Source of the DNA: a bacterium | Lineage (GTDB): Bacteria; Elusimicrobiota; Elusimicrobia; Elusimicrobiales; UBA9959 | Direction of reading: 5' to 3' | Assembly (NCBI GenBank): GCA_021847485.1 | Contig: JAJZRA010000014.1 | Location: 1-37,317, forward strand | DNA: 37,317 bases | Shown: one piece after another, positions 1 to 29,781 of the stretch | Layout of the letters: the number at the start of each line of letters is the position of its first letter | Position numbering within the stretch: the first letter of the stretch is position 1 | Translations under genes and position numbers: made by a program | The notes under the pieces: model-generated | The model's input: only the letters and a program-made list of their open reading frames with translations | What the model was told of the DNA's origin: nothing | Database searches by the model: none

Positions 1-1254
1 GCACGCCATGCGGCGGGCCATCTTGGTCATGTTCCTGATATTGGTCGAGTACATCCCGGCGCTGTGGTGGTTGTTCCCCTCGGCGCGGCGGGCCAGCTCT
101 ATGGCGGCGTCCACGTCGCGGCAGACCGTCACGGGCAGCACCGGCATCAGCTGCTCGGTGAAGACGAAAGGATGGTCGTTGGGGACCTCGGCCCAGAGCA
201 CCCTGATCTCGTCGGAGAGGTTCAGGCCGATGGCCTTCGCTATCACCGACGGGTTCTTGCCGATGAAGTCGCGGTTGACCTTGGGCTCCGGGCCCGGCTC
301 GGGGATGGCGAGCTTCGAGAGCTGGTCCATCTGCGCGCCGGTCAGTTCGTGCGCGCGGTGGTCGCGGCGCATCGCTTCGAGGAAGCGCCCGCGCGCGGCC
401 TCGGTCACGATGACCTCCTTCTCGGCGATGCAGAGCACGTTGTTATCGAAACCGCAGCCGGTGATGATCTCGGCGGCGCAGTCCGGGAAAACGGCCGTCT
501 CGTCCACCACTACCGGCGGGTTGCCGGGGCCGGCCGCTATGGTCTTGCAGGCCTTGCCGGCGGTCATCGCCACCCTGACGATGGCGGGGCCGCCGGTGAC
601 GATGTTCATATTGGTGAGCGGGTGCATCAGGAGCTGCTTGGTGGACTCCTGCGTGGGCTTGGCCATCGTCGTGACCAGGTTGGCGGGGCCGCCGGCCGAG
701 ACTATGGCCCGGTCCAGCGTGCGCACGGCGTCGGCCACGCAGCCCTTGGAGGCCGGGTGCGGCGAGAACACCACCGAGTTGCCGGCCGAGAGGATGCCTA
801 TGGAATTGCTGATGATGGTCGCCACCGGGTTGGTGGAGGGCGTGATGGCGGCGATCACGCCGAAAGGCGAGTACTCGACGAGGGCCATGCCCTTGTCGCC
901 GGTGAAGGCGGTGGCGCGCAGGTCCTCGGTGCCGGGGGTCTTGTCGGCGCAGACCAGGTTCTTCAGGACCTTGTCGGCCACGCGGCCCATGCCGGTCTCG
1001 GCCACGGCCATCTCGGCCCAGCGGCGGGCGTTCTGGCGCGAGACCTCGCGCATCGCCGCTATGATCCTGCCCCGGGCCTCGAGGCCCAGGTCCTGGAAGC
1101 CCGGCTGGGCGGCCGCGGCGGCCTTGACCGCCTCGTCCACGCCGCCGAACACCGGCCCGCCGGACGACGGTTCCGCCGCCGGCGCGGGAGCGCCGCCGAG
1201 ATTGCGCACGACCTCGGTCACTATCTTCTTCAGGTCCTCTTCGCTCAAAGGCAT
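1..1254 (-). CDS. eutE/pduP-like: CoA-acylating aldehyde dehydrogenase of a BMC, EutE/PduP type (C terminus cut by window edge)
   Basis: Would oxidise an aldehyde made inside a microcompartment to acyl-CoA with NAD+. I translated it from the ATG at 1254; 418 codons lie in the window and the stop is beyond base 1 (family about 460-470 aa). Residues 1-20 (MPLSEEDLKKIVTEVVRNLG) form an amphipathic helix, followed by an Ala/Pro/Gly-rich linker, as in encapsulation peptides of BMC cargo. The dehydrogenase core follows, with the family segment FDNNVLCIAEKE; Cys275 is the expected catalytic thiol. The gene lies 9 bp after eutN in the BMC operon. Aldehyde length specificity (acetaldehyde, propionaldehyde, lactaldehyde) cannot be read from the sequence. 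Family assignment is firm; EutE versus PduP is not. Confidence 0.93.
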   Translation of the reverse strand, partial: MPLSEEDLKKIVTEVVRNLGGAPAPAAEPSSGGPVFGGVDEAVKAAAAAQPGFQDLGLEARGRIIAAMREVSRQNARRWAEMAVAETGMGRVADKVLKNLVCADKTPGTEDLRATAFTGDKGMALVEYSPFGVIAAITPSTNPVATIISNSIGILSAGNSVVFSPHPASKGCVADAVRTLDRAIVSAGGPANLVTTMAKPTQESTKQLLMHPLTNMNIVTGGPAIVRVAMTAGKACKTIAAGPGNPPVVVDETAVFPDCAAEIITGCGFDNNVLCIAEKEVIVTEAARGRFLEAMRRDHRAHELTGAQMDQLSKLAIPEPGPEPKVNRDFIGKNPSVIAKAIGLNLSDEIRVLWAEVPNDHPFVFTEQLMPVLPVTVCRDVDAAIELARRAEGNNHHSAGMYSTNIRNMTKMARRMAC

Positions 1255-1263
1255 ATGGCCGCC

Positions 1264-1572
1264 TTATCCGTTCAGCTTGTCGACGGATTTCTTGAAGACT
1301 ATCTTTCCGTCCTTCTCCACGGTGTCCACTATCGCGAAGATCGTGCAGTCCACCGGGGTATTCTCGGTCTTGCTGGTCTGGCGGGCGCTCGAGCCCTGCA
1401 CCAGCAGCACCAGTTCGCCGGTACCGGCGCCCACGGCGTCGATGCCGACGAGCGCGTTGCCCTTCGGCTTGTCGTCGAGGCCCACCGGCTGCACCATCAG
1501 CAGCTTGGTGCCGACCAGCTTGTCGTCCTTGCGCGTACAGACCACATTCCCCACCACGCGTGCAAATAACAT
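1264..1572 (-). CDS. eutN-like: EutN/CcmL-type pentameric BMC vertex protein
   Basis: A 102-aa single-domain protein of the EutN/CcmL/PduN family, whose pentamers cap the vertices of the polyhedral BMC shell. The start MLFARVVGNVVCTRKDDKLV and the central G-x-G-T-GE-LVLLVQGSSAR region match the family; the usual length is 85-105 aa. The start ATG at 1572 is preceded by a GGAGGG ribosome binding site. The 135 bp upstream, between this gene and the BMC-H gene, are largely a REP-like palindromic element, the only sizeable gap in an otherwise tight operon. Confidence 0.95.
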   Translation of the reverse strand: MLFARVVGNVVCTRKDDKLVGTKLLMVQPVGLDDKPKGNALVGIDAVGAGTGELVLLVQGSSARQTSKTENTPVDCTIFAIVDTVEKDGKIVFKKSVDKLNG

Positions 1573-1585
1573 ATTCCCTCCGCAG

Positions 1586-1707
1586 AAAAATAGGGACAGA
1601 CACCTATTTTTGGCGATCCGTGAACAGCAAGACCTATTGATATCTTTTATAATAAGATAGCGGAAACAGGTGTCTGTCCCTAATTTAATAGGGCGCTGTC
1701 CCCATTT
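1586..1707. repeat. REP-like compound palindrome inside the BMC operon
   Basis: The left arm (1586-1611) contains TAGGGACAGACACCTATTTT and is itself a hairpin (AAATAGG / CCTATTT). The right arm (1664-1686) carries the same motif inverted, AACAGGTGTCTGTCCCTA. The spacer contains a smaller stem, TATCTT / AAGATA. A third related unit, GGGCGCTGTCCCCATTTT, at 1687-1706 touches the BMC-H stop codon. The same motif recurs at 29702-29781. This resembles REP/REPIN sequences mobilised by IS200-like (Y1) RAYT transposases; no such transposase is in the window. It may act as an mRNA stabiliser or attenuator between shell genes (inference). Confidence 0.8.
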
Positions 1708-1992
1708 TTACTTCTTTTTGGCTTCGCTGATCGGGAGCTTGCCTTCCAGGTCGCCGTGCGGCTGCGGGATCACGTGCACGCTGACGAGCTCGCCCACCTT
1801 CTGGGCGGCGGCGGCGCCGGCGTCGCAGCTGGCGCGGCAGGCGGCCACTTCGCCGCGGAACAGGATCGTGACGAGGCCGGAGCCGATCTTCTCATAGCCC
1901 ACGATGTGGACGTTGGCGGCTTTGACGGCGGCGTCGGCGGCTTCCACGCAGGCCACGAGGCCCTTGGTCTCTATCATTCCGAGTGCTTCCAT
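1708..1992 (-). CDS. pduA-like: BMC-H hexameric shell protein, PduA/CcmK type
   Basis: A 94-aa single BMC-domain protein; hexamers of this family tile the facets of the shell and form size-selective pores. The opening [20 protein letters not shown] is the classic BMC signature. The pore loop region reads KIGSG around residues 35-39, and the segment [17 protein letters not shown] matches the second conserved helix. A short charged tail (SEAKKK) ends the protein. AGGAGG stands upstream of the ATG at 1992. It is the only canonical single-domain shell protein in view; further hexamer genes may lie beyond base 1. The 3' end abuts the palindromic repeat. Confidence 0.97.
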
Positions 1993-2029
1993 TGTATCCT
2001 CCTGTCGAACTCAATTAAAATCAACCAAA

Positions 2030-2659
2030 TCAGACTATATAGGCCGGGTCGTAGTTCTTGAGGCCGGCGGCGTTGGCCTCGTCGGTGTCGAGGTGCAGCT
2101 CCAGCGCGAACTTATCGGATACGCGGCACAGCACTCGCTCGAAGATGGTCTCCTTGTCGGTGCCCTTGCCGCACAGCACGCGCACTTCCTGGCCGTCCTT
2201 CACCTTGTACCGCTCGGCCTCCTTCGTATGGAAGTGGATGTGGCGCTTGGCGATAATGACGCCGCCGGGGATCGTCACGGACCCTTTGGGGCCGGTCAGC
2301 TTTATGCCGGGCGTGTTGTCGAGCTTGCCCGAGTCGCGCACGGGCGGTTCCACGCCGAGGCGGCGGGTGTCGGCCAGCGAGACCTCCACCTGCGAGGCGG
2401 GCCTGAAGGGCCCGAGCACGCGCACGTCCTTGATGGCGCCCTTGGGGCCCTCCACGGTCACGACCTCCTTGCAGGCGAACTGCCCGGGCTGCTTGAGGTC
2501 CTTGTGGACGTTCATCTGGTCGTAGCCGAACAGCGCCACAAAATCTTCCTTCTTCAGGTGCATGTGGCGGTTCGAGATGCCCACCGGCACCGGCATCGAG
2601 GAGCGTTCCTCGCGCAGCTTCAGGTCGGCCAGCATTTCTTTCACAAGTTGTTCGTTCAT
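2030..2659 (-). CDS. pduL: Phosphate acyltransferase PduL of the BMC
   Basis: Converts acyl-CoA plus phosphate to acyl phosphate and recycles CoA inside the shell, coupling the aldehyde dehydrogenase to substrate-level phosphorylation. It has 209 aa with the two-barrel PduL layout: HxH zinc motifs at 31-35 (RHMHL) and 139-143 (RHIHF), and a third conserved block around His189 (LELHLDTDEANA). The first 17 residues (MNEQLVKEMLADLKLRE) form an amphipathic helix of encapsulation-peptide type, as in BMC-associated rather than housekeeping PduL. The ATG at 2659 follows an AAGGGG ribosome binding site. No acetate or propionate kinase gene is visible in the window. Confidence 0.95.
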   Translation of the reverse strand: MNEQLVKEMLADLKLREERSSMPVPVGISNRHMHLKKEDFVALFGYDQMNVHKDLKQPGQFACKEVVTVEGPKGAIKDVRVLGPFRPASQVEVSLADTRRLGVEPPVRDSGKLDNTPGIKLTGPKGSVTIPGGVIIAKRHIHFHTKEAERYKVKDGQEVRVLCGKGTDKETIFERVLCRVSDKFALELHLDTDEANAAGLKNYDPAYIV

Positions 2660-2681
2660 CGGAGTTTCCCCTTAGTTTAAG

Positions 2682-3461
2682 TTACCGGGACAGCACCGGC
2701 TGAAAGTGGATCACGCGCAGGAACTTGTCGGCCTTGAGGCTCTCGCCGCCGACCAGCGCGCCGTCTATGTCGGGCTGCGCCATCAGCTCGTCGATATTCT
2801 CGGCCTTCACCGAGCCGCCGTAGAGGACGCGCACGGCCTCGGCGTAGCCTTTGCCGTAGATGCGCTCCATCTGCCTGCGCACGAAAACGTGGGCGTCCTG
2901 CGCCTGGTCGGGCGTGGCGGTCTTGCCGGTGCCGATGGCCCAGACGGGCTCGTAGGCGATGACGACCCTGGCCGCCTCGGCCGCGCTGATGCCGGCGAAC
3001 GCGCCGACCAGCTGCGTCTCGAGGACCTTGTAGGTCTTCTGGCTCTCGCGCTCCTCGAGCGTCTCGCCGATGCAAAGCACGGGCACGAGGCCGTCCTTGA
3101 TGGCGGTCTTCATCTTCTTATTGACGACCTCGTCGGTCTCGAGGAAGATCTTGCGGCGCTCGCTGTGGCCGATGATCGCGTGCGTGCAGCCGGCGTCCTT
3201 GATCTGCGACGGGGAGACCGCGCCGGTGAAAGCGCCCTTCTCCTCCCAGCAAACGTCCTGGGACGAGAGGAAGATCTTCGAACCGGCGAGCGCGCCGTGC
3301 ACGGCGTGCAGCGCGGTGAAGGTCGGGGCCAGCAGCACCTCGTGCTTCAGGTCCGGGTCCAGGCCTTTCCGGATGGCGGCGGCGAGGTCCGCGGCCTCCT
3401 TGGCGGTCATATGCATCTTCCAGTTGCCGGCTATCATCGGAACGCGCTTATCTGAAGCCAT
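2682..3461 (-). CDS. tpiA: Triosephosphate isomerase encoded within the BMC operon
   Basis: Interconverts dihydroxyacetone phosphate and glyceraldehyde 3-phosphate. Active-site elements are intact: NWK near residues 13-15, the electrophilic His in AIIGHSERR, the catalytic Glu in AYEPVWAIGTG followed by loop 6, and the phosphate grip YGGSVKAEN and GALVGG. I chose the ATG at 3461 (MASDKRVP) because AGGAG lies 9 bp upstream; an upstream in-frame start would add 12 unrelated residues. Length is about 259 aa, normal for the family. No encapsulation peptide is apparent at either end. Its place between pduL and pduT suggests the pathway makes a triose phosphate alongside the aldehyde. Confidence 0.96.
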   Translation of the reverse strand: MASDKRVPMIAGNWKMHMTAKEAADLAAAIRKGLDPDLKHEVLLAPTFTALHAVHGALAGSKIFLSSQDVCWEEKGAFTGAVSPSQIKDAGCTHAIIGHSERRKIFLETDEVVNKKMKTAIKDGLVPVLCIGETLEERESQKTYKVLETQLVGAFAGISAAEAARVVIAYEPVWAIGTGKTATPDQAQDAHVFVRRQMERIYGKGYAEAVRVLYGGSVKAENIDELMAQPDIDGALVGGESLKADKFLRVIHFQPVLSR

Positions 3462-3505
3462 ATTCGGGGTCTCCTTGATATCAAAAAGATTATACAAATA
3501 AAGAC

Positions 3506-4054
3506 TTAAATTATTTCCCGCAGCAGCTCGGGCCTGGGCTGCGGTATGACCACTTTCTCCACCAGCAGGCCTTTCTTCGCGGCCACCGCGGCTCCGGCGC
3601 CTACCGCGGCCTCGGCCGCGGCCACGGGCCCGGTAAGGGTAACGAAAGCCTTGCCGCCCAGCGCCATCGCCAGGCGGATCTCCAGCAGCTTCACCGGCGC
3701 GGCCTTGACGGCGGCGTCGGCGGCCTCCACCAGGGCGGCCACCGAGAAAGCCTCTATGATGCCGAGGGCCTCCAGGCCCTCCGGCACGGTGGTGCCCTCG
3801 ATGGCCGGGAAAACGTCGGGGTGGATGTTCGGGATCACGAAGCTGTCCACCAGCGCATGGGCGGCCTTGGAGGCCCCCGCCTCGACGGCGGCGTTGACGT
3901 CGCCCACGTCGCCGGAGATCAGGATCACGTACTTGCCGGCGCAGACGGAGCGAGAGAGTATCAACTGCACCTTGGAGGTTTTGAGCATCGCGTCGGCCGT
4001 CTCGAGACCTTTGGCGACGCTGGAAAGTTCTACTCCGCCGATGGCGTTAAGCAT
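3506..4054 (-). CDS. pduT-like: PduT-like tandem-BMC shell protein with candidate Fe-S pore cysteine
   Basis: A 182-aa protein with two BMC domains (about 1-90 and 95-180; the second restarts with GLEALGIIEAFSVAALVEAA). Tandem-domain proteins form trimeric pseudohexamers in the shell. The segment SRSVCAGKY places a cysteine at residue 38, the same number as the cysteine in PduT that, as known for that family, holds a [4Fe-4S] cluster at the trimer pore. The gene is separated by 1 bp from the pduS-like gene, the usual PduT partner, which supports an electron-transfer role across the shell. The cluster itself is inferred. Confidence 0.92.
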   Translation of the reverse strand: MLNAIGGVELSSVAKGLETADAMLKTSKVQLILSRSVCAGKYVILISGDVGDVNAAVEAGASKAAHALVDSFVIPNIHPDVFPAIEGTTVPEGLEALGIIEAFSVAALVEAADAAVKAAPVKLLEIRLAMALGGKAFVTLTGPVAAAEAAVGAGAAVAAKKGLLVEKVVIPQPRPELLREII

Positions 4055-4055
4055 A

Positions 4056-5405
4056 TTAGGCGATTATCTCCACGTATCTCTCGTTGACCCGGCCCACGGT
4101 GCCGGCGATGCTGGCGTGCACCGGGCAGCCCAGCTTGTCGGCGGGGACGTCCCCCACCACGGCGCCCTTCTCCACCCGCTGGCCCTCCTTAACTGCGGGC
4201 AGGCACGGCATCCCGATATGCTGGGCCATCAGTATCCTGACCGTGGAGGGCCTGTAGGTCTCGTCGGTCCACGCCGCGTCCTTGTTGTAGTCCTCGAGGC
4301 CGAGGCGCCGCACCAGCTTGGAGACCGGCACCTTGCGGAACTCGCGGACCGGGTGGACTTCCGGCTTGCGGCCGCTGTCGAGCCCCGAGTTCTTAAAGCC
4401 TATCTTCGCCTCGCGCAGATCGGCCTTGGCGGCCACGCAGGCCTCGCGCGGGTTGAGCCCCTCGGGGCAGGAATAGAGCGAGCACAGCGAGCACTCGCAG
4501 CAGAGCAGGCCGTACCGGCTGTTGAGTTTGTGGCCCTCCGTCCCGGAGGAAAAAAGCATGGTCCGCATCACGCGGTGCGGCTGCACGTTGTGGCCCAGCA
4601 GGTAGCGGGGGCAGAACTCGGTGCAGTAGGAGCACTGGTCGCAGGCGGAGCGGCCTATGCGGGTGAACGTCGGGCGGCCCTGGGCCTTCTTGACGATCAG
4701 CGGGTGGTCCTTCGGCAGCACGATGATGCCGCCCGAGGCCTTCACGAGCGGCAGGTCGAAGTCGGTCCGCACCTTGCCCATCATCGGGCCGCCGTCGATA
4801 TAGGCGGGGTCCTTCACGGTGAAGCCGCCGCAGAACCGTTCGACGCATTCGCGCCAGGTCACGCCCACCGGGACTCGGAAGGTGGCGGGCCTCTTCACCC
4901 CTCCGTTCACCGTGACGAAGGTCTCGGTGACGGGGCGCGGGGCGAACGCGGCGTTGTAGAGGGTCTCGACGTTGCTGACGACGCAGCCCACGTCCAGCGG
5001 TATGCCGCCCGGCGGCACCACGCGGCCGGCGGCCTCGTAGACCAGGCACTGCTCGTCGCCGGCGGGGTAGTAGTCCCCCATCTCCAGCACGGAAACGTTC
5101 CTGCGGGACTTCGCGATCTCTTTGAGCCTGGGGATGAGCTTCTCGTGCTTGCGCTTGATGCCGAGCACGCCGCGGGAGGCGCCGACGGCCCCCATCAGCA
5201 GGTCCAGCCCGTCGAAGACCTTCTCCGGCCAGCGCTCCAGGATCTTCTGGTCCTTCTTCAGCAGCGGCTCGCATTCGGCCGCGTTGACCAGCGCGTACTC
5301 GGCCTTCCCCTGCGCCTTGACGTAGGACGGAAAGCCGGCGCCGCCGGCTCCCACTACTCCGGCGGCACGCAGGTTTTTGCTGAATTCTGCCGAGAATTCC
5401 GACAT
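4056..5405 (-). CDS. pduS-like: PduS/RnfC-like flavin and iron-sulfur oxidoreductase of the BMC
   Basis: A 449-aa protein of the PduS family, related to RnfC and the NuoF-type SLBB proteins. In Pdu organelles PduS is a flavoprotein with two [4Fe-4S] clusters that reduces cobalamin and is thought to pass electrons to PduT. Visible are the glycine-rich flavin/NADH motif GAGGAGFP at 19-26, a first cluster at Cys255, 258, 261 and 265 (CDQCSYCTEFCPR), a second at Cys302, 305, 308 and 313, and a C-terminal lipoyl-like domain from about 385. No diol or glycerol dehydratase is in the window, so the electron acceptor is unknown; NADH disposal through the shell is an alternative to B12 reduction. Confidence 0.93.
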   Translation of the reverse strand: MSEFSAEFSKNLRAAGVVGAGGAGFPSYVKAQGKAEYALVNAAECEPLLKKDQKILERWPEKVFDGLDLLMGAVGASRGVLGIKRKHEKLIPRLKEIAKSRRNVSVLEMGDYYPAGDEQCLVYEAAGRVVPPGGIPLDVGCVVSNVETLYNAAFAPRPVTETFVTVNGGVKRPATFRVPVGVTWRECVERFCGGFTVKDPAYIDGGPMMGKVRTDFDLPLVKASGGIIVLPKDHPLIVKKAQGRPTFTRIGRSACDQCSYCTEFCPRYLLGHNVQPHRVMRTMLFSSGTEGHKLNSRYGLLCCECSLCSLYSCPEGLNPREACVAAKADLREAKIGFKNSGLDSGRKPEVHPVREFRKVPVSKLVRRLGLEDYNKDAAWTDETYRPSTVRILMAQHIGMPCLPAVKEGQRVEKGAVVGDVPADKLGCPVHASIAGTVGRVNERYVEIIA

Positions 5406-5415
5406 CCGGCGGTTC

Positions 5416-6645
5416 TTACTTGGCGGCCACGAGGCGCTTCTTGACCGCGGCGGCGAGGCGCTTGATGCCCTCGTCTATCTTTTCCGGGGTGGCGAAAGAG
5501 AAGTTCAGGCGCATCGTGTTCTTGCCGGACCCGTCGGAATGGAAAGCGGAGCCTATCACGTAGGCCACGTTCTCCTTCAGCGCGTCCTGGAACATGTCGT
5601 CGGCGCTCATGCCCTCCGGCAGGCGCACCCACAGGAACAGGCCGCCCTCCGGGTTGGTCCACGTGACGCCCTCGGGCATGTACTTCTCGAGCGCGCCGAC
5701 CATCGCGTTCTTCTTCATGCGGTAGTCCTTCTTGACCACCTCGATATGCTTCTCGAAGAAGCCGGTGCGCAGGAACTCGGCGGCTATCAGCTGGTTCAGG
5801 CTCGACGTGCAGAGGTCCAGCGACTGCTTGAGGATCTCCATCTTCTTGATGATCTGCGGGTGGCCCAGGATGATGCCGAGGCGCAGGCCCGGGGCGAAGG
5901 TCTTGGAGAACGTGAACAGCGAAACGATGTTGTGCGTCCGCTTGCCGTCCTGGTCCAGGCGGTAGAGCATCTTGGGCTCTTTGCCCTCGAAGCGGATCTG
6001 GCGGTACGGGGAATCCTCGATGACCGCGACGTTGTACTTATCGGAAAGCTCTATCACCTTGTGGCGCTTGGCCTCCGACAGCGTGACGCCGCTGGGATTC
6101 TGGAAGTCGGGCACCAGGTAAATGAACTTATAGTGCTCGTCCTGCGCGTGCAGCCACTGCAGCTTCTCCTCGAGTTCCTCGGTGCTGATGCCGTCGTCCT
6201 CGAGCTTGACGCCTATGAACTCGGCGCCGTAGGAGCGGAACACCTGCAGCGCGCCCATGTAGCTGGGCTTCTCGACGATGACGGGGTCGGAGGCGTCGAC
6301 GAACAGGCGGCCCACCATGTCCAGCGCCTGCTGGCTCGCGGTGGTGATGATCAGTTCCTCGGGCTTCACGTCGAGGCCTTCGTACTTCTTCAGGAACTTT
6401 ATGAACTCCTCTTTCAGCTCGGGCAGGCCGTCGGTGGGGCCGTACTGCAGCGCCACCTTGCCCTTCTTGGACATGATCTCCTTGACCACGTCCGCGACGA
6501 AATCGTAAGGGAAATGCTCGGGGGCGGGCAGGCCGCCGGCGAAGGAGATGATGCCGGGCTGGTTCGTGGTCTTGAGCAGTTCGCGTATGACGGAAGCCTT
6601 GGTGCGCCGGGGGGTGGTGGCGATATTCTTCGCGATGTCGATCAT
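5416..6645 (-). CDS. PLP-dependent class I aminotransferase, first gene of the BMC operon
   Basis: A 409-aa fold-type I aminotransferase resembling the 2-aminoadipate/aromatic (LysN-like) group. The N terminus (SVIRELLKTTNQPGIISFAGG) and FSKTFAPGLRLG with the PLP lysine are typical; PDFQNPSG and YGPTDGLPEL are further family blocks. It begins at ATG 6645 after CGGAGGAAAAT and ends 10 bp before the pduS-like gene, so co-transcription is likely. A promoter sits just upstream. No encapsulation peptide is evident, so it may work in the cytosol. Its link to the BMC pathway is positional only; it may instead be an amino-acid transaminase that shares a transcript. Confidence 0.9.
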   Translation of the reverse strand: MIDIAKNIATTPRRTKASVIRELLKTTNQPGIISFAGGLPAPEHFPYDFVADVVKEIMSKKGKVALQYGPTDGLPELKEEFIKFLKKYEGLDVKPEELIITTASQQALDMVGRLFVDASDPVIVEKPSYMGALQVFRSYGAEFIGVKLEDDGISTEELEEKLQWLHAQDEHYKFIYLVPDFQNPSGVTLSEAKRHKVIELSDKYNVAVIEDSPYRQIRFEGKEPKMLYRLDQDGKRTHNIVSLFTFSKTFAPGLRLGIILGHPQIIKKMEILKQSLDLCTSSLNQLIAAEFLRTGFFEKHIEVVKKDYRMKKNAMVGALEKYMPEGVTWTNPEGGLFLWVRLPEGMSADDMFQDALKENVAYVIGSAFHSDGSGKNTMRLNFSFATPEKIDEGIKRLAAAVKKRLVAAK

Positions 6646-27979: not shown

Positions 27980-29695
27980 ATGTCCGAACGCGTCCAGATA
28001 ACCGTGGCCGAGAGCGCCGGCTTCTGCCCGGGCGTCAAGAACGCCATCGACAAGGTGCTCGAGCTCGCCAAGAGCCGCCAGCGGACCATCTACACGCTGG
28101 GGCCGCTGATCCACAACAAGCAGGTCATCGAGACGCTCAAGGAGAAGAACATCCGCGCGGTGGGCTCGCTCGAAGAGGTGAAGGACCGCGGCGCGATCCT
28201 GGTCATCCGCGCGCACGGCGTGCCGCCGGAGGAGGAGGCCCGCATCCGGGCCCTCGGCCTCGAGGTGGTGGACGCCACCTGCCCGCTGGTCAAGCACGTG
28301 CAGAAGAACATCCAGGCGTACGCCGAGCGCGGCTACAGCACCATCATCGTGGGCGACAAGGACCACGCCGAGGTCGTAGGCCTGATGGGCTACACCGAGG
28401 GCCGCGGCTACGTCGTGGACGGCCCGGAGGAAGTGAAGAAGCTGCCCCGCCTCGGGAAGGCCAACATCGTCGCCCAGACCACGCAGGAAGGCGAGGTCTT
28501 CCTGGCCGCGGCCGAAGCGGCGCGCGCCGTGGCCGGCGAACTGGCAGTCTCCAACACCATCTGCAACCCCACCCGGCAGCGCCAGAAGGAGACCGTGGAG
28601 TTCTCGAAGGACTCCGACCTCGTTATCGTGGTGGGCGGCAAGAACTCCGCCAACACCGCGCGGCTTTTCCAGATCTGCGAGCGGCTGGCCCGGCGCGCCG
28701 TCCACATCGAGAAAGAGGACGAGCTCGGGCCGGAGCTTTTCAAGGGAGCCCGCAAGGTCTTCATCACGGCCGGCGCCTCCACCCCTTCCTGGATGATAGA
28801 GCGCGTGCTCGAGAAGGCCCGCGAGCTGGCAGGCGAGGCCGAGGGCCACGCGCTGGAGAAGCTGGCCTTCCTGTGGAAGCTGGCCGTCACCGGCTCGCTC
28901 TACACGGCGCTGGCGGCCGCGGCGCTGACCTACGTCTGCATGAGGCTGGAAGGCTCGCCGGTCAGCGGCCGCTTCCTGCTGATGGCAGGCCTGTTCGCTT
29001 TCAGCCTGCACATGGCCAACCGGGCGGTGGAGAAAGGCACGGCCGCCCCGGACCGCGCGCGGCGCCTGCTGTTCGTGAGATATTTGCGCCAGTCCCGGCT
29101 GGCCGCGCTGTTCTGCGGGGCGCTCGCGGTGCTGCTGTCGGCCGCGCTGGGCTGGAAGGTCTTCCTCGCGGCCGCCTTCTTCTGGGCCGCCGGCATGCTG
29201 TACCCCTACAAGCTGCCGCTCGGCTTCGAGCGCTTCGGGGATTTCCCCGCCTCCAAGGACATCGTCACCGCCCTCGGCTGGGCCTTCATGTGCGCCTACG
29301 CCCCCGGCCTGTGGCGCGGCGGCGCGCTGAGCAACTCCACCCACCTCGCCGTCTTCTTCGCCTTCCTGCTGGTGTTCACGCGCTCGGTGCTTTTCGGCGT
29401 CAGCAACGCCCACAGCGACATGATCGTCGGCAAGGAGAACTTCTACAAGGCGGCCGGCCCGCGCTTCACCTACCTGACGCTGTTCGCCATCTTCGCGCTG
29501 CTGGCCGCGGTACTGCTCATGCTCAAGGACATGGGCTGGCGCTCCGGCCTGGCCTCGGCCCTGCTGACCGGCATGCTCTACTACCTGGGGCTGATCCTCT
29601 TCTTCCTCTTCGGCCGCATCCCCGAGCGCATCAACGCCGAGACCCTGATAGACACCCAGTTCCTCCTCCTGGCCGCCCTGGCCTGGCGCTCTTGA
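27980..29695 (+). CDS. ispH: IspH (HMBPP reductase) fused to a UbiA-like membrane prenyltransferase domain
   Basis: A 571-aa protein. Residues 1 to about 285 are a complete IspH, the [4Fe-4S] enzyme making IPP and DMAPP in the MEP pathway: Cys16 in GFCPGV, RAHGVPP, DATCPLV, TTQ, NTICNPTRQRQKET, GGKNSANTARL and GASTPSWMIE. From about 300 on, seven to nine hydrophobic segments follow. This part resembles UbiA-type prenyltransferases: FSLHMANRAVEK (position of the first Asp-rich motif, weakly conserved), KDIVTALGWAFMCAYAP, and SNAHSDMIVGKENF (position of the second). Fusion would link isoprenoid precursor supply to a membrane-bound transferase. The UbiA call is from pattern; no frameshift separates the halves. 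Confidence 0.9.
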   Translation: MSERVQITVAESAGFCPGVKNAIDKVLELAKSRQRTIYTLGPLIHNKQVIETLKEKNIRAVGSLEEVKDRGAILVIRAHGVPPEEEARIRALGLEVVDATCPLVKHVQKNIQAYAERGYSTIIVGDKDHAEVVGLMGYTEGRGYVVDGPEEVKKLPRLGKANIVAQTTQEGEVFLAAAEAARAVAGELAVSNTICNPTRQRQKETVEFSKDSDLVIVVGGKNSANTARLFQICERLARRAVHIEKEDELGPELFKGARKVFITAGASTPSWMIERVLEKARELAGEAEGHALEKLAFLWKLAVTGSLYTALAAAALTYVCMRLEGSPVSGRFLLMAGLFAFSLHMANRAVEKGTAAPDRARRLLFVRYLRQSRLAALFCGALAVLLSAALGWKVFLAAAFFWAAGMLYPYKLPLGFERFGDFPASKDIVTALGWAFMCAYAPGLWRGGALSNSTHLAVFFAFLLVFTRSVLFGVSNAHSDMIVGKENFYKAAGPRFTYLTLFAIFALLAAVLLMLKDMGWRSGLASALLTGMLYYLGLILFFLFGRIPERINAETLIDTQFLLLAALAWRS

Positions 29696-29701
29696 AATAG
29701 G

Positions 29702-29781
29702 AAATAGGGACAGACACCTATTTCCGGATCCTATAAAGTCCTCAGGACCCTGTAGGGGAAAATAGGTGTCTGTCCCTATTT
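29702..29781. repeat. REP-like palindrome between convergent ispH and sigma-factor genes
   Basis: The left arm (29702-29723) contains AATAGGGACAGACACCTATT; the right arm (29759-29781) is its reverse complement. Each arm is itself a hairpin (AAATAGG / CCTATTT). The spacer has a GTCCT / AGGAC stem. It shares the arm motif with the element at 1586-1686 and begins 6 bp after the ispH stop. A terminator role for both convergent genes is possible. Confidence 0.85.

Follow-up and report, generated by a model that had tools for sequence, protein, structure and literature searches.

The locus examined here raises the question of why an IspH should continue in frame into a UbiA-like membrane domain, and what such a domain does there. 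The window (the whole analysed stretch of 37,317 nt, contig JAJZRA010000014.1 of the Elusimicrobiales assembly GCA_021847485.1) carries an ispH-ubiA-like fusion gene at 27,980..29,695 (+ strand), an open frame of 571 codons plus stop with no stop or frameshift inside. A sequence-only reading had proposed that it joins a complete IspH to a UbiA-like domain with weak Asp-rich motifs, placing IPP and DMAPP production at the membrane, where it would feed a prenyl transfer such as to quinone or haem, or use the precursor itself. Directly 3′ of the gene lies a perfect 22-nt inverted repeat (AAATAGGGACAGACACCTATTT) with arms 36 nt apart (window 29,702-29,781 and 1589-1680); its 20-nt core has 18 genome copies, often as facing pairs (reversed-letter control: 0), and it looks like a REP/REPIN-type element.

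The N-terminal half is an IspH/LytB domain (residues 7-279; 27,998..28,816, + strand) by profile (Pfam LYTB, 3.7e-88; TIGR00216, 278.9 bits with a cut-off of 187.85) and by fold (Foldseek to 3dnf at 2.8e-21). The cluster cysteines C16, C101 and C195, as well as the HMBPP pocket residues H45, H79, H129, E131, T168, S223, N225 and S267, are invariant across fused relatives in an 88-sequence alignment. LytB fold, the three cluster cysteines and the conserved His/Glu/Thr/Ser/Asn pocket are thus all present, and the IspH is as complete as had been proposed. Behind it, a linker (residues 280-289; 28,817..28,846, + strand) shows low conservation, and AlphaFold2 confidence is lower around residue 285 in a whole-protein model (40 relatives in the alignment) whose mean pLDDT is 87.4. 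The genome of the window (2.2 Mb, 122 contigs, 83% complete) also has ispG and three polyprenyl-synthase matches; no second ispH was found in it at that completeness. From its sequence, we infer that the N-terminal half is the only HMBPP reductase of the cell, producing IPP and DMAPP.

All data are MAGs, whose contigs can in principle be chimeric, and a frameshift or a sequencing error could likewise have joined two genes. However, the same join recurs in 88 distinct fused relatives from many independent assemblies, and among the loci examined the C-domain is seen outside an IspH frame only in G004, whose gene is interrupted by contig ends. With 88 distinct fused sequences and no other ispH in the genome, an accidental join is ruled out; the chance of an artefact is vanishingly small. 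The C-domain is present in 26 of the 41 nearest genomes and in 84/295 genomes of the phylum. By a count from tables, 80 of these 84 belong to the order's two families (38 to that of the window, 42 to the other), where 119 genomes have an ispH match, and the loci most like that of the window in named genomes are from Elusimicrobia/Elusimicrobiales MAGs. Three further genomes lie elsewhere in the class: G123 and G245, with the fused IspH only, and G242, where an ordinary second IspH besides the fused one is consistent with acquisition of the fused gene. A weak C-domain hit in G070 is probably a chance match. Other class members, including loci L091 to L094, have IspH frames of 700-1009 codons in the GC-rich families f7 and f8, which may be other fusions or just open N-terminal frames.

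The C-terminal part, residues 290-571 (28,847..29,692, + strand), is hydrophobic. Checked against the Pfam UbiA profile, it did give a match, yet one under the curated threshold (17.0 vs 34.2 bits, E 0.0038), and among relatives the C-domain matched in 14/25 (best E 1.2e-6). A sequence-profile search of the PDB with the C-domain gave zero UbiA hits at E <= 10, and the profile-profile match between the fused family and true UbiAs was modest (E 4e-4, global); sequence models alone do not settle the identity of the domain, and its solved relatives were found by structure only. AlphaFold2 on the C-domain alone predicts nine long helices (residues 307-324, 330-350, 369-388, 392-410, 425-445, 452-478, 494-517, 522-544 and 550-570) with a pLDDT of 90.2 and a pTM of 0.90, in models that rest on family alignments only. 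Its closest solved structures by VIA are all UbiA proteins, among them ApUbiA (4od5; Z 18.5, 252 residues, rmsd 3.3) and AfUbiA (Z 17.3-18.0); trans-prenyl synthases, also an all-helical bundle, rank after them (Z 15.5 and below), and no other membrane family comes out on top. Foldseek against UbiA structures gave E values of about 1e-4 to 1e-3 at a probability of 1.00. The label 'UbiA-like' is right because the best solved matches are all UbiA proteins, and the predicted model has the nine-helix UbiA fold. Structure prediction thereby bears out the UbiA-like membrane domain after IspH.

Does this fold retain the equipment of a prenyltransferase? In AfUbiA, N68, D72, D198 and D202 coordinate two Mg2+ and D76 assists; alanine at N68, D72, R22 or K146 abolishes GPP binding, D198A and D202A weaken it 45-fold and 21-fold, respectively, and MenA becomes non-functional when the residue equivalent to N68, D72, D198 or D202 is mutated (Huang et al. 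2014, PMC4106721). We set the corresponding positions by hhalign profile alignment with true UbiAs and tallied them in an alignment of 89 rows, made up of the fusion in the window and 88 distinct fused relatives. The first Asp motif, NDxxDxxxD, is altered to N347-R-A-V-E351-K-G-T-A355 (29,018..29,044, + strand): position 347 (AfUbiA N68) is N in 85/89 rows, position 351 (D72) is E in 75/89, D in 1/89 and S, Q or G in 12/89, and position 355 (D76) is acidic in none of the 88 fused sequences. The second, DxxxD, reads N476-A-H-S-D480, followed by near-invariant G484, E486, Y489 and K490 (29,405..29,449, + strand); position 476 (D198) is S, H, A, N or Q and never acidic in the 88 sequences, and position 480 (D202) is D in all 88 rows with a residue there. 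Relative to the Mg2+ ligands of AfUbiA, one is lost everywhere, one has mostly changed from D to E and two are kept, and the fused C-domain does not carry the catalytic UbiA motif pair (NDXXDXXXD and DXXXD with ligands N68, D72, D198 and D202). The Asp-rich motifs had thus correctly been called weak. The 'NR' of the first motif was also considered as a charge inversion and rejected, a MqnP-like UbiA (L187) having the same N-R.

Canonical prenyl transfer by the C-domain is unlikely because the D198-equivalent ligand, essential in MenA, is missing. By sequence comparison, the residues most important for prenyl-diphosphate binding in AfUbiA appear to be partly kept. Binding without transfer is plausible because D198A and D202A are mild for binding in AfUbiA, whereas the MenA ligand mutants are inactive.

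Beyond the motifs, the fused C-domains share a near-invariant set of their own: Y408, K426, D427, R468, G484, E486, Y489, K490, E554 and D558. K426 and D427 belong to the conserved S425-K426-D427 with which helix 5 opens (29,252..29,260, + strand; K 86, R 2 and D 86, E 2 in 89 rows), and E554 and D558 stand at the start of helix 9 (29,639..29,653, + strand; E 87, D 1 and D 85, E 2 in 89 rows). With the alignment mapped on the model, the near-invariant polar residues fall in loops 2-3, 4-5 and 6-7 and at the helix 9 start, plus R468 inside helix 6, and none were seen in loops 1-2, 3-4, 5-6 and 7-8. From topology, and given IspH in the cytosol, loops 2-3, 4-5 and 6-7 and the helix 9 start would be on the cytosolic side, which is the active-site side of UbiA; K426 as the match of AfUbiA K146 is a guess. 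Compared with UbiA prenyltransferases (AfUbiA 4tq3/4tq4, ApUbiA 4od5, MenA, MqnP), the domain shares the nine helices, both motif positions, the N68 and D202 equivalents and a conserved Tyr, but differs in having lost those of D198 and D76, in its usual Glu for D72 and in scoring below the Pfam cut-off; near-invariant E486, Y489, K490, E554 and D558 are extra.

Over 15 close pairs, dN/dS (simple Nei-Gojobori counts, hence rough) is 0.026-0.169 for the C-domain and 0.011-0.122 for the IspH domain, and the pairwise identities of the two halves correlate (r = 0.89). Judged by these sequence comparisons, the C-domain is under selection where it is kept. In a quick IspH-domain tree, fused and truncated Elusimicrobiales IspHs form one group, separate from most others in the phylum, and five changes of state between fused and non-fused are required. 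At least three of the five look like losses of the C-domain with ispH retained: in a group of the window's own genus (G005, G018, G021, G228, perhaps with G011), in one gut group (G028, G037, G150) and in another (G029, G030). The IspH of G011 stops after 300 codons, yet it is followed, like the fusion gene in the window, by a gene for this kind of ECF sigma factor; the locus thus seems otherwise preserved, with probably just the domain taken out. IspH therefore does not need the domain, which is repeatedly lost while ispH stays. Members of the genus that lack it have other UbiAs, MqnP-like in G005, G011, G018 and G228 and MenA-like in G021; a tie between loss and the type of the other UbiA is suggestive, from few cases judged by score class. 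G030 (same order, 98% complete) has ispH and ispG and no PF00348 polyprenyl synthase match.

A check for other ispH and ubiA genes in the window's genome showed the fused ispH to be the only one and recovered two separate UbiA-family matches above cut-off, one of which reads as MenA-like by its motifs; separate UbiA genes are a feature of the genus. In the gut relatives G033 and G026, the fused domain is the only UbiA match in the genome, and in G034 the fused frame was seen with no separate UbiA match. Because fermenting gut relatives retain the C-domain and have no other UbiA-like domain, we consider a general quinone role unlikely. Prenyl transfer to quinone or haem, as put forward from sequence, is therefore not supported: both Asp motifs are without ligands needed by canonical UbiA, separate UbiA genes exist here, one of them MenA-like, and gut relatives without another UbiA keep the domain. 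At L003 (G000:C71:79053-81580), a UbiA-like gene adjoins two polyprenyl-synthase matches, and a similar cluster is found in G012:C39; possibly these represent a separate prenyl-lipid pathway. The neighbours of the fusion gene, mostly read from sequence, are uvrB, an ECF sigma factor, phosphofructokinase, RlmB and an M3-like peptidase, among which we found no functional or pathway hint and no adjacent acceptor-pathway gene. At the far end of the window (1-6645, − strand) lies a microcompartment cluster with two BMC shell proteins, EutN, a PduL-type phosphotransacylase, an aldehyde dehydrogenase, an RnfC/PduS-like flavo-iron-sulfur protein as well as an aminotransferase; embedded mid-cluster is a gene for triosephosphate isomerase.

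Fusions of this kind were already published in 2015, when IspH-UbiA hybrids were reported in 47 sequences, primarily from Desulfobacterales sulfate reducers; these 'Rosetta stone' hybrids have two DXXXD repeats and a UbiA half of CDD class PT_UbiA_5, the function of that half was not shown, and Elusimicrobia go unmentioned in the text (Rao et al. 2015, Chem Sci, PMC4746011). Elsewhere in the open-access literature, outside of which most subscription journals lie, the hybrid term occurred in just one other paper, within its reference list. Like those hybrids, our fusion joins an IspH in frame to a C-terminal UbiA-like domain of nine helices. It differs, by their published description, in its Elusimicrobiota host and in that both DXXXD repeats are altered, so that the two-DXXXD signature is absent; this altered-motif version seems not to have been described before. 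A search for Desulfobacterota homologues returned none from plasmids and none with the C-domain from IMG/VR. One IMG/VR contig (L202), with phage tail-like genes, encodes at 1049-2683 a 544-residue IspH with a hydrophobic C-terminal extension of ~270 residues, next to radC-like and tadA-like genes; the extension has no Pfam match and scores no better than shuffles against the fused C-domain family. IspH-RPS1 (PRK00087) is likewise a long IspH with an extra C-terminal domain, and our IspH half scores 318.9 bits against it, under the 624-bit cut-off; the extra domain here is a membrane UbiA fold and not S1 repeats.

We favour, at a probability of about 0.45, an IspH tethered to the membrane by a UbiA-fold domain that binds prenyl diphosphates, either to hand them over or to sense them, a reading drawn from sequence and predicted structure. 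The C-domain would dock IspH to the inner side of the membrane, in line with the earlier proposal that the fusion places it at the membrane. The domain would retain a partial prenyl-diphosphate site (N347, Y408, D480, probably K426 and, in most sequences, an acid at E351), but the second motif is missing the Asp on which transfer depends, and the first motif its third Asp. It may bind prenyl diphosphates and pass IPP/DMAPP and elongation products to prenyl synthases or, alternatively, sense product and adjust IspH; no prenyl transfer to an aromatic acceptor would take place. Binding for hand-over or sensing is favoured because the transfer ligand is missing and binding residues are partly kept, which comes close to the earlier suggestion that the domain 'may use the precursor itself'. 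A sole ispH alongside ispG and polyprenyl synthases, invariant IspH active-site residues, the UbiA fold with D198 and D76 equivalents lost while those of N68 and D202 stay, a C-domain dN/dS like that of the IspH half, near-invariant polar residues in one set of loops and at the helix 9 start, co-divergence of the halves, and the gut genomes G033, G026 and G034 all speak for this reading. Against it, E351 is Ser, Gln or Gly in 12/89 rows, so even the binding site varies; loss of the C-domain in several lineages means that any regulatory role is dispensable there; the gene neighbours give no functional hint; and the near-invariant E486, E554 and D558 might make up a new metal site, as an active enzyme would need.

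That last point leads to the possibility that the C-domain is a prenyltransferase still active though divergent, its metal site rebuilt from E351, D480, E486 and E554/D558, which would use IPP/DMAPP-derived diphosphates on a non-quinone acceptor. Such an enzyme would be in keeping with the UbiA fold, with the strong purifying selection and with the near-invariance of several acidic residues, and also with the like architecture of the sulfate-reducer hybrids, in which an active UbiA half was supposed (Rao et al. 2015, PMC4746011). We nevertheless consider it less likely than binding alone, given that the D198 and D76 equivalents are absent in all 88 sequences, that MenA needs the former (PMC4106721), and that no acceptor-pathway gene adjoins the fusion. 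Loss of the catalytic Asp residues, and of the whole domain repeatedly with ispH retained, would fit instead a mere membrane anchor, an inert UbiA relic holding IspH at the membrane. An inert anchor would need only hydrophobicity, however, and specific polar residues are conserved on one side in sequences down to about 20-40% identity, with similar dN/dS in the C-domain and the IspH half, which makes an anchor rather unlikely.

Within the preferred reading of a prenyl-diphosphate-binding domain, we speculate, with considerable doubt, that a former prenyltransferase has become a built-in module, for sensing prenyl diphosphates or handing them over, through which the last MEP enzyme is controlled or channelled. 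On the way to such a module, one catalytic Asp would have been lost and a new invariant polar set gained. UBIAD1 offers a loose analogy: this UbiA protein binds HMG-CoA reductase, and geranylgeraniol displaces it (Schumacher et al. 2015, PMC4374513). There, too, a UbiA fold is physically tied to an isoprenoid-precursor enzyme, a likeness of arrangement only and no evidence of kinship, and it shows that the fold can serve control of isoprenoid supply; it differs in being eukaryotic, in consisting of separate proteins, in belonging to a different pathway and in that UBIAD1 is an active enzyme.

More than 80 sequences thus point to strong selection on a UbiA domain without the residues needed for canonical transfer, and this selection holds in genomes with and without other UbiA genes. 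The relatives that dropped only the C-domain provide a clean natural comparison between location, sensing and a new reaction. If true, the sensor or hand-over module would parallel, in bacteria and by covalent linkage, the pairing of UBIAD1 with HMG-CoA reductase, and the fusion bears on the question of whether the MEP pathway ever has a physical link to the membrane.
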